A DNA stretch of 32,236 nucleotides from positions 1 through 32,236 of IMG/VR virus record IMGVR_UViG_3300027749_000335. One strand, 5' to 3'. This document shows positions 4,401-12,059 of this stretch, in pieces (the first letter of the stretch is position 1; every line of letters begins with the position of its first letter). Source of the stretch: a virus. Under the pieces are notes generated by a model, which worked only from the letters and a program-made list of their open reading frames with translations, did not search any database and was not told the DNA's origin. The position numbers were made by a program, and so were the translations under genes.

Positions 4401-4571
4401 TCAGCGTGGTGTTTGACGCTTCCTTGCTGCTGCTAATGCTTTCTTTTGCATGGCGTGGCGTGCTTCTGCTTTCTGGATGCCAGCCCATTTGCCGTGATGG
4501 AATCCTGCCAGCCAACAGCCAACAACGGTAATTGCTATTGCTACTAGTTGGAAGTTGCCGATATCGCTCAT
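4401..4571 (-). CDS. Small single-pass membrane protein (56 aa)
   Basis: The ATG overlaps the TGA of the upstream gene (ATGA). The product has one clear membrane segment at residues about 7-24 (FQLVAIAITVVGCWLAGF), followed by a basic, alanine-rich helix (KKALAAARKRQ) that should stay in the cytoplasm. The longer overlapping frame at 4387-4587 has no such pattern and was rejected. Small one-span phage proteins of this kind may alter the host envelope or block superinfection, but nothing in the sequence decides this. Confidence 0.7.
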   Translation of the reverse strand: MSDIGNFQLVAIAITVVGCWLAGFHHGKWAGIQKAEARHAMQKKALAAARKRQTPR

Positions 4572-5733: not shown

Positions 5734-6015
5734 TTAGATCTCTGCTGTCATCTGAAGCAAAGCGATCTCTGAGTATTTGATGTTGTTGATGGCGTCATAG
5801 ATCAAGGCGAAAGTATCGGAGTGATCTGTTCCTGTTTCATCATCTATCTGTTCCAGATAGTTCTTTGCCAACCTCATCCCTGCGAGAGCCTGTGCGTATT
5901 TGCTGCTGATTTCCAGCATCTCGTTTTGCACATCTCTGTCTTCTACGGAATTGATGAGTGCCAGAACTTCTCTCTTATGTGGTGATCCTACGATCGGTGA
6001 TCCTACGATCTTCAT
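5734..6015 (-). CDS. Hypothetical helical protein, first gene after leader
   Basis: The 93-residue product begins MKIVGSPIVGSPHKREV and then is mostly helical and acidic (ISSKYAQALAGMRLAKNYLEQ). The start at 6015 is fixed by a GAGGAGGGCAAA site. It resembles in size and layout the protein at 11623-11922, which also follows a leader with the same promoter and hairpin pattern; both have a DAINNI segment. That shared segment hints at a distant relationship, perhaps two diverged copies of one early gene. Function unknown. Confidence 0.65.
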   Translation of the reverse strand: MKIVGSPIVGSPHKREVLALINSVEDRDVQNEMLEISSKYAQALAGMRLAKNYLEQIDDETGTDHSDTFALIYDAINNIKYSEIALLQMTAEI

Positions 6016-6167
6016 TTTGCCCTCCTCTTGAGCTAGGGGGCTGGTTGCCCCCATGAATCAATCTTGCCCAATCGGTGTGGGTATTGCAAATCAACGAACC
6101 CTATACCTAGTCAGGGTTTCCCGTATTTGTTGCAATTCCAGCCCCTAGTTAGGGCATATTTCAGGCT
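6016..6167 (-). promoter_or_regulatory. Leader A: promoter-like boxes with 5' hairpin
   Basis: Read on the minus strand, TGATTTGC (6093-6086) leads into a TTGCAA -35-like box, a 17-base spacer and a CAAGAT -10-like box. Eight bases later a GGGGGC-5-GCCCCC hairpin (6052-6036) begins, followed by CAAGAGGAGG and the ATG of the next gene. The same layout with identical spacing is found at 11923-12000. Upstream lie TCAGGGTTTCCCGTA (6111-6125) and GCCCCTAGTTAGGGC (6141-6155), possible operator or terminator elements. The promoter call is inference from spacing and comparison of the two copies. Confidence 0.55.
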
Positions 6168-9482: not shown

Positions 9483-10270
9483 TAGCGCATCTCCATCAGT
9501 TGCTTGATCAAACCAGATGCTTCTTTGCTGGTCAACTCACCAACAGCAGACTTGTTGAACAGCTCTCGCATCAACGGAACACAATCTCCGTTCACTTTTT
9601 CTTTCGCAAGTTTGCTAATCAAACCCTTTTGTTTGTCGCTCGCTTTCCCACTAGACGAAGCAACAGGCTTTGATATAGGCGTGATGTTCTCAACAATCGT
9701 GCCGTTGAACTGTGCAGCTATCTCTGCCATTTCATCTGGCGTTGGCTCAATTTCCTGAACAAACTCACGCACTACTTTCGGAGATGGCACACCCTTCGCA
9801 GGATGATTCTGAACATACGGCTTCGCTTCCTCAGCTCGCTTTGCTTGCGCTGCAGGGAGACTAATGATCGTTGTGTTATCAGACCAATCCTGCTTTGACC
9901 ATAGGCTAAGTGCGATACCGAAACGCATTGCAGCGTTGCGCAGGAAGTCACCGACAAGCTCTTTGTCAAGATCCTGTTTGTCTGCCCGAACCGATCCAAC
10001 GCCCAACATAGATTTGCCTAGCAGCGTGAGAGTTCCCCACATTGTTGCTGTTCCATTCTCCACATTGATTGCTGGTCTGCCATTTACCCATTCAATCGGC
10101 TGCCAGCTCCACGCTGGATCAACTTCAATTAGGATTTTCGTTATGTCTGCGTGGCTGACATAGGCAAGATTGATCCCGTTGCGTGGGATAGTTCCCACAA
10201 TTTTCGGATCTGGGGTTGCATATTGATCCAACACTGCACGCAGAAGTTGAGTATTAAGTTCCTCGCTCAT
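9482..10270 (-). CDS. erf: ERF/Rad52-like single-strand annealing protein
   Basis: The 262-residue protein resembles phage annealing proteins of the ERF/Rad52 superfamily. The conserved core covers about 35-135, with WSWQPIEWVNGRPAI, GTLTLLGKSMLGVGS and LRNAAMRFGIALSLW. A flexible linker and a C-terminal helical domain follow (SDKQKGLISKLAKEK). It would coat single-stranded DNA and anneal complementary strands. Its gene follows the YqaJ exonuclease with a 4-base overlap, the classic exonuclease-annealase pair for phage recombination and possibly recombination-dependent replication. The exact subfamily (ERF, Sak or RecT-like) cannot be settled by eye. Confidence 0.75.
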   Translation of the reverse strand: MSEELNTQLLRAVLDQYATPDPKIVGTIPRNGINLAYVSHADITKILIEVDPAWSWQPIEWVNGRPAINVENGTATMWGTLTLLGKSMLGVGSVRADKQDLDKELVGDFLRNAAMRFGIALSLWSKQDWSDNTTIISLPAAQAKRAEEAKPYVQNHPAKGVPSPKVVREFVQEIEPTPDEMAEIAAQFNGTIVENITPISKPVASSSGKASDKQKGLISKLAKEKVNGDCVPLMRELFNKSAVGELTSKEASGLIKQLMEMR

Positions 10271-11263: not shown

Positions 11264-11623
11264 TTATCTGTCTGCAGCCCTGTCCGCTTTCGGATCACGC
11301 ACTTCCCACACTCCTCTGCGCAGTTTGCGAAACACATCAGTGCGCTCACCAATGAACTTGCGCACCGTTGGCTCACTCAACTTGGACAACTCCACCAGTG
11401 CTTCCACTGTGGCTTCCTCAAACACATTGCGCTTGCACCAATCCAGAATCAAATCGTACTGATACTTGCGTGTGAGGTAATCGGATGAGCGTTGCGCTGT
11501 TGCCAGCATCCCATCAAGCCACTGTGCATCAACTTGATGCCTGATTGGTTTCGGTACATGAGCAACCCATAATGGTCTGCCGTGTGTTGCGATTGCTTCA
11601 GCAACAATCTCTGCAGCAGTCAT
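11264..11623 (-). CDS. Hypothetical protein with winged-helix-like C-terminus
   Basis: The 119-residue product has a C-terminal section (VEALVELSKLSEPTVRKFIGERTDVFRKLRRGVWEV) that looks like a winged helix or HTH, with the second helix in SEPTVRKFIGER. The N-terminal part (MTAAEIVAEAIATHGRPLW) is helical. A near-consensus AAGGAGGTGAAGTG site precedes the ATG, which overlaps the upstream TGA. It may regulate the recombination genes that follow; the DNA-binding role is inference. Confidence 0.65.
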   Translation of the reverse strand: MTAAEIVAEAIATHGRPLWVAHVPKPIRHQVDAQWLDGMLATAQRSSDYLTRKYQYDLILDWCKRNVFEEATVEALVELSKLSEPTVRKFIGERTDVFRKLRRGVWEVRDPKADRAADR

Positions 11624-11922
11624 CACTTCACCTCCTTAGTCTTGCTTGGGAGAATGATTGAATCGTAAGCAGTTGTGATGTTGCCAATAAGGTTGTACAA
11701 CTCTTGACCCATCTGACCAATGGCTTCGTATGTTTCACTTCCTTCTGGAAGTCTGCTGTAGATATTGTTGATTGCATCAAATGCAAGTAGTGCTTGATTC
11801 ATGCAAACATTCAAATTGCTTTTTGTTGTGTCTTTTGTCAGACAAGCAATTTCATAATCAGTAGCCCACGCTGTGTAACCAGTTGGTGCTGTGTGCTTCC
11901 TGCGCAATATTTTCCTACTCAT
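11623..11922 (-). CDS. Hypothetical helical protein, first gene after leader B
   Basis: The 99-residue product begins MSRKILRRKHTAPTGYTAW. The centre and C-terminal half are helical (LNVCMNQALLAFDAINNIYSR and YEAIGQMGQELYNLIGNI). The start at 11922 follows GAGGAGGACATT. It shares its leader architecture, size class and a DAINNI segment with the protein at 5734-6015. Function unknown. Confidence 0.65.
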   Translation of the reverse strand: MSRKILRRKHTAPTGYTAWATDYEIACLTKDTTKSNLNVCMNQALLAFDAINNIYSRLPEGSETYEAIGQMGQELYNLIGNITTAYDSIILPSKTKEVK

Positions 11923-12030
11923 AATGTCCTCCTCTTGAACATCTGGGGTAGATCCCCATAAAGACACTTTATCAAAGTCAGCGAAGTCAAGCAAATCAGG
12001 GAAACCCTGACTGCGTGCGGGTTTGGGAGA
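11923..12030 (-). promoter_or_regulatory. Leader B: promoter-like boxes with 5' hairpin
   Basis: On the minus strand TGATTTGC (11998-11991) leads into a TTGCTT -35-like box, a 17-base spacer and TAAAGT as -10-like box. Eight bases later a TGGGG-5-CCCCA hairpin (11958-11944) begins, then TTCAAGAGGAGG and the ATG. The distance from TGATTTGC to ATGGGG is exactly the same as in leader A (45 bases in all). A perfect-arm palindrome TCAGGGAAACCCTGA (11996-12010) overlaps the -35 region, a typical operator position. Confidence 0.6.
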
Positions 12031-12059
12031 AGCCCCACCCCGTACTAGGGGGCAGGGCT
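12031..12059 (-). terminator. Hairpin downstream of the small conserved gene
   Basis: AGCCCCACCCC pairs with GGGGGCAGGGCT through an 11-bp stem with two G-T wobbles. It lies between the stop of the gene at 12105 and the promoter-like leader B, where a transcript end would be expected. No clear run of T follows on the minus strand, so it may need other factors. Confidence 0.35.

Follow-up and report, generated by a model that had tools for sequence, protein, structure and literature searches.

We describe a recurrent phage leader, apparently an unreported and statistically well supported structured RNA, in which a sigma-70-type promoter is followed by a hairpin at the probable 5' end of the transcript (H1) and by a second hairpin (H2) that carries the Shine-Dalgarno (SD) box. 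About 50 distinct copies are present in IMG/VR phage contigs. Comparison of these sequences strongly supports a structure of two covarying hairpins; its function is inferred. With a probability of roughly 0.6, the leader serves early genes as a promoter/5'-UTR cassette; H1 would cap the 5' end of the mRNA and H2 would present or gate the SD.

Two leaders of one architecture in a phage genome

The window, meaning the whole stretch of DNA analysed, is a 32.2-kb virus record whose larger open reading frames (ORFs) lie mostly on the minus strand, those of both leader-bearing operons included. A Pfam and PHROGs scan of the window proteins revealed a WhiB protein, and the large terminase is best matched (39%) by that of Pontimonas phage phiPsal1, also a WhiB-bearing phage; on these two grounds an actinobacterium is the probable host. 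The two leaders, A (6093→6016) and B (11998→11923), are both on the minus strand and follow one order: after TGATTTGC and a stretch of 31 nt comes ATGGGG, then a hairpin whose loop has 5 nt, then CAAGAGGAGG and finally ATG. The original prediction had described this spaced pattern, and it recurs exactly at 6093-6049 and 11998-11954 with no third match in the window, where CAAGAGGAGG likewise has exactly two occurrences. The gapless 45-base alignment that it reported is present on the minus strand with an identity of 24/45, to which the fixed ends contribute 14 and the sequence between them 10/31, close to background. It had placed the copy at leader A at 5923-6093; the portion 6016-6093 is the leader, while a start at 5923 runs into coding sequence. 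The features are as follows.

6061-6089, minus strand: leader A promoter, with -35 TTGCAA at 6084-6089, a 17-nt spacer and -10 CAAGAT at 6061-6066 (from the sequence; geometry kept in ~48 relatives)
6054, minus strand: probable transcription start of leader A, an invariant A 7 nt past the last T of the -10, with a pyrimidine at -1 in 48/48
6036-6052, minus strand: leader A H1, 6 bp with loop AACCA (GGGGGC/AACCA/GCCCCC) (MFE fold, H1 covariation)
6019-6033, minus strand: leader A H2, with the SD box UCAAGAGGAGG at 6021-6031 (MFE fold, H2 covariation)
5734-6015, minus strand: operon A first gene, 93 aa, of no known family (ORF; relatives in contigs L003-L006)
6109-6122, plus strand: 14-mer AGTCAGGGTTTCCC, upstream of leader A and in the opposite orientation to it (exact repeat; kept in L003/L004, L005)
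11966-11994, minus strand: leader B promoter, with -35 TTGCTT at 11989-11994, a 17-nt spacer and -10 TAAAGT at 11966-11971 (from the sequence and conserved geometry)
11959, minus strand: probable transcription start of leader B, an invariant A assigned as for leader A
11944-11958, minus strand: leader B H1, 5 bp with loop AUCUA (UGGGG/AUCUA/CCCCA) (MFE fold, H1 covariation)
11923-11943, minus strand: leader B H2, 7 bp, with the SD box UCAAGAGGAGG at 11928-11938 (MFE fold, H2 covariation)
11623-11922, minus strand: operon B first gene, 99 aa, of no known family (ORF; other genes take its place in relatives)
11999-12012, minus strand: 14-mer AGTCAGGGTTTCCC, adjoining the upstream end of leader B (exact repeat; kept in L003/L004, L005, L008, L012)

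The 17-base promoter spacers and the 5-nt H1 loops of the original prediction are thus found in both leaders; H2, the 14-mer and the use of the leader before many unrelated genes had no part in it. The -10 box of leader A is weak. Folding from the putative +1, MFE prediction gives H1 and then H2 in both leaders, each with the seven bases AAGAGGA unpaired in the H2 loop, at modest z-scores of about -2. The two leaders differ by compensated stem changes inside one genome, and a covariance model built from 33 leaders detects exactly these two in the window (about 1e-13).

Recurrence of the leader in other phage contigs

A single pair of leaders could be due to chance, a concern that is resolved because relatives carry the same pattern. 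A search with the first protein of operon A yielded three contigs that are close and one that is distant, and the close ones carry both leaders. Three partly independent scans of the collection, for the promoter with ATGGGG and AGGAGG (8 stretches), for H1 with the box (24) and for the box together with one fixed C-G pair beside it (58), gave 84 distinct box sites in all, among which are about 50 leaders of the same kind and, apart from these, six H2-only sites. The remaining sites, mostly coding-region or chance matches, served as natural controls. The motif search in related phages had been set as the check on the original prediction, and both the spacing and the hairpin are kept in the relatives. 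Its view that the pattern is selected gains from the first scan, in which all 8 IMG/VR DNA stretches match in a leader context, and again from a fourth scan for the promoter and H1 in which the box was not required: the exact 11-nt SD box was nonetheless in place in 16 of the 21 contigs recovered. The other five (L078-L082) have the promoter and H1 with no box, and seem to be either chance matches or a leader of another kind.

The covariance model finds 1-4 leaders per record in other records, and two further leaders that came to light in this way both have the exact box, an inserted G disturbing H2 in one of them. Neither in Pontimonas phage phiPsal1 nor in a Manatee Spring phage did the same model give a convincing match. 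Rfam had no match above the gathering score at the leaders of the window or its relatives, and the isolated phages of INPHARED had none to the DNA of gene A or to a first protein, with only chance-level matches to leader DNA. Four exact pattern matches in GTDB genomes (a Nocardiopsis and three MAGs) are without the promoter and H2 context and were judged to be chance. A literature search, limited in that subscription journals lay mostly outside its reach, found no description of the leader. The phage group that bears it probably infects aquatic actinobacteria.

Promoter and probable transcription start

The promoter is of the sigma-70 type, with a -35 of TTGC(A/T)(A/T) and G-rich and AT-rich conservation upstream; six leaders of one gene family have a different promoter spacing. 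In the MAFFT alignment an invariant T, the last base of TANNNT, and an invariant A, the probable +1, stand exactly 7 apart. A pyrimidine occupies -1 in 48/48 leaders and an A occupies -11 in 46/48, neither of which was conditioned on, and we infer that the invariant A is where transcription begins. In the 48 leaders, 0-3 nt separate this A from the H1 stem that follows (1-2 nt in 41), which agrees with the earlier placement of a hairpin at the likely transcript 5' end. A leaderless or upstream ORF from an AUG at +1 was considered and rejected, since no more than 30/50 leaders have that AUG and, where it occurs, it falls at random in the three frames with respect to the true start (10/9/11).

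Compensatory changes in the two hairpins

H1 is a hairpin of 4-7 bp with an A-rich loop of 3-5 nt, placed a constant distance past the -10. Its stems include such different types as GGGG/CCCC, UGCCC/GGGCA, UCAAGG/CCUUGA, CGGGC/GCCCG and AUCAGUU/AACUGAU. H2 is built around the invariant 11-nt box UCAAGAGGAGG, which sets the SD core in a 7-nt loop, and in an alignment of sites the bases around the box are complementary and change together (GC/GC, UGC/GCA, AUGU/ACAU, GUC/GAC, AGAU/AUCU and UUGAU/AUCAA are among the types).

Covariation was counted on fixed-length pieces, because MAFFT misaligns leaders with 4-nt loops. H1 is 95.7% paired against 75.2% when shuffled, with double changes in all five pairs and a covariation score of 0.516 against 0.141 (0/500 shuffles), and the six-pair helix of H2 is 90% paired in 30 distinct 23-nt sites against 70.7% in shuffles, with a score of 0.526 against 0.204 (0/500) and slid controls at most 0.129; since the sequences are related, these shuffle statistics overstate the significance for both hairpins. 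As the H1 placements were picked for best pairing, the fair control is a shuffle test of the box sites, in which hairpins lie ahead of the box at 50/84 sites compared to 7.3 expected and a shuffle maximum of 15. The covariation is cleanest at the two inner variable pairs of H2, which are paired in 60/60 cases over the 30 sites (UA16/CG14 and GC19/AU9/UA2); a few H2 sites came through the pattern that fixed one C-G pair, and the other types were free to mismatch. The predicted stability of H2 is weak and narrow across stem types, at -2.5 to -4.4 kcal/mol, and the predicted fold leaves the SD core AGAGGA unpaired and masks the last GG alone. Because compensating mutations are found in both hairpins, in copies that precede unrelated genes, selection appears to act on the folded leader RNA itself.

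Genes behind the leader

The leader precedes first proteins that fall into 27 sequence clusters, and close relatives of the window carry different first genes behind leader B. As its copies precede so many unrelated small first proteins, the leader is, by this distribution, a module and not gene-specific. The operons that bear it are small, non-structural and probably early. First protein A had sub-threshold Pfam matches only and no PHROG match, and no relative was found for the first gene of operon B. The DAINNI segment that the original prediction saw in both first proteins is real as letters, being identical in the two (a 6-residue match occurs in 1/2000 shuffles). Homology of the proteins did not hold up: BLASTP aligns only a 14-residue stretch, the profile E is about 0.13-0.18, and the segment is lost in the relatives of first protein A.

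A perfect tandem 15-nt repeat, GGTGATCCTACGATC, also stands at the start of first gene A, at 5981-6010 of the window, and makes the protein repeat IVGSP; relatives have GGTGATCCTACGATC in one copy or none. At 4552 (minus strand) of contig L042, a homologue of this gene lies behind an intercistronic RNA and H2 in place of the promoter, H1 and H2, so that the gene A family occurs under two ways of making the leader.

Neighbouring elements

The exactly repeated 14-mer AGTCAGGGTTTCCC, which lies upstream of the two leaders in opposite orientations and is retained in close relatives, is a possible operator. Between the upstream gene and leader B, at 12031-12059 (minus strand), is a strong 11-bp GC-rich hairpin, GCCCTGCCCC/GGGGTGGGGC, with no T run; its sequence is also found ahead of several other leaders, and it is possibly a terminator.

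H2 is also present inside operons, without promoter or H1. In an intercistronic gap of L010, a type II hammerhead ribozyme at 9600-9664 on the plus strand (Rfam RF02276, 48.7 bits, gathering 37) is directly upstream of the H2 SD-hairpin box that belongs to the following gene. Hammerheads with a possible role in transcript processing have been described in phages (PMC3088659); the new part in L010 is the coupling of a hammerhead to the SD hairpin. The unnamed intercistronic RNA seen in L042 has the form GCCTAG-CGC..GCG-TGGGATTCAATTCCA-CTAGGC-ACAA-GGC..GCC, is predicted to fold as a three-way junction plus a hairpin, and shows the compensatory changes CGC/GCG to CAC/GTG and GGC/GCC to GGT/ACC. 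Its copies are at about 10147 in L021, 9784 in L029 and 11842 in L060 (plus strand), and in L032 and L042 (minus strand) just ahead of the boxes at 1753 and 4552; four of the five are directly upstream of an H2 SD hairpin, and the copies searched had no Rfam match.

Relation to known systems

The closest parallel in placement and use is offered by the SAS/ESAS elements of cluster K mycobacteriophages, in which the SAS is a 13-bp consensus, GGGATAGGAGCCC, found with up to 2 mismatches ahead of start codons, and the ESAS consists of imperfect 17-bp inverted repeats with a variable spacer upstream of about half of the SAS sites (PMC3203893). The role of SAS/ESAS still needs experiments (PMC12699233). 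Like the SAS, the leader puts a short conserved SD-bearing element a few nt at most from the start codon, and does so for many non-structural genes that are not related to one another, here of 27 downstream protein clusters, in phages that are (for the leader, probably) actinobacterial, and the SAS often has inverted repeats upstream. The box here is TCAAGAGGAGG rather than GGGATAGGAGCCC, and it was absent from the examined parts of TM4, Angelica and Pixie; H1, with its short stem just past the probable +1, likewise differs from the 17-bp ESAS repeats. From parts of three genomes we recovered 44 SAS sites, whose consensus can fold into a 3-bp stem whose 7-nt loop bears the SD. The stems of these 44 sites are nearly constant and their deviations mostly uncompensated, whereas those of the leader vary and covary. 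The leader is therefore not a member of SAS/ESAS, though it may work like them.

H1 resembles the 5'-terminal stabilising stem-loops of ompA, papA and bla with an appended hairpin (PMC3997798), being a hairpin at the extreme 5' end with few unpaired nt, 0-3 in the 48 leaders when counted from the putative start. The ompA/papA-type stem-loops belong to single host genes, whereas the leader is a recurrent phage module with a promoter and a second, SD-bearing hairpin. CsrA targets and T4 RegB sites present the GGA of an SD in a hairpin loop closed by C-G. H2 shares the GGA in the loop and the C-G closure with such translational operators, its loop being AAGAGGA compared to the usual ANGGA form of CsrA targets.

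Proposed function and alternatives

Under the cassette reading, transcription would begin at the invariant A and H1 would fold at the extreme 5' end with only 0-3 nt unpaired, hindering pyrophosphate removal and 5'-end-dependent RNase attack and so lengthening the life of the mRNA. B. subtilis RppH requires at least two unpaired 5' nt, and bla mRNA is stabilised by an appended 5' hairpin (PMC3997798), and stabilisation by H1 fits the few unpaired nt predicted here. H2 would keep the SD exposed in a 7-nt loop, its last GG tied down, on which the tail of 16S rRNA could nucleate, and would insulate the ribosome-binding site from the coding sequence behind it. Together the two hairpins would give standardised expression whatever gene follows. 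As the two G's of the SD tied down in H2 would alone lower initiation, a regulatory role is equally natural, and an H2 regulated by a protein or by conditions is the main rival to this passive reading.

In its protein-dependent form, H1 and H2 would be an RNA operator, recognised by a phage or host RNA-binding protein or SD endonuclease, comparable to CsrA-type repressors or T4 RegB, that switches all leader-bearing genes together. We consider this possible, though somewhat improbable. The invariant 11-nt box, the GGA in a loop closed by C-G, the weak but conserved stem, the A-rich H1 loops and the same SD hairpin inside operons without H1 would all suit it, but the stems vary so freely that recognition would depend on the loops only, the box is also simply a good SD, and in the window proteins that were compared with Pfam and PHROGs no such regulator, and no CsrA or RegB homologue, could be recognised, most early proteins being unannotated. 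In a wider and more tentative proposal, H1 and H2 form a phage-wide RNA 'address tag' by which one RNA-binding factor or modified ribosome would switch early genes post-transcription, and internal genes would gain the H2 tag behind intercistronic structured RNAs, one of them a hammerhead ribozyme. It is unlikely that H2 is a cis-acting gate, its masking of the SD sensitive to temperature or ions so that translation varies with conditions; the low and narrow predicted stability would be in keeping with this, but AGAGGA is unpaired in the predicted fold, where the last GG alone is masked.

Inverted repeats by promoters are common operators, and those of the leader might work as DNA, binding repressors near the start site. 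The separate exact 14-mer upstream of both leaders could be seen in the same light, and may be an operator in any case. For the hairpins we regard this as very improbable: pairing persists from copy to copy although the stem sequences are wholly different, which is at odds with a protein that reads sequence, and H2 encloses an asymmetric SD. Least probable is a recent duplication of the leader with no selection. Two copies with the same fixed points in one genome might suggest it, but only 10/31 bases agree between the fixed points, the leader is conserved in diverse contigs and ahead of unrelated genes, and the covariation already contradicts it.

Significance

In uncultured, actinobacterial-looking phages, the leader is a mark of the expression of genes that are probably early, and it indicates that selection for structure can act on an SD displayed in a hairpin loop. 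It offers a concrete, testable model for the unexplained SAS elements of mycobacteriophages and, at about 40 nt, would be a compact natural part with which mRNA life and translation could be tuned in actinobacteria.
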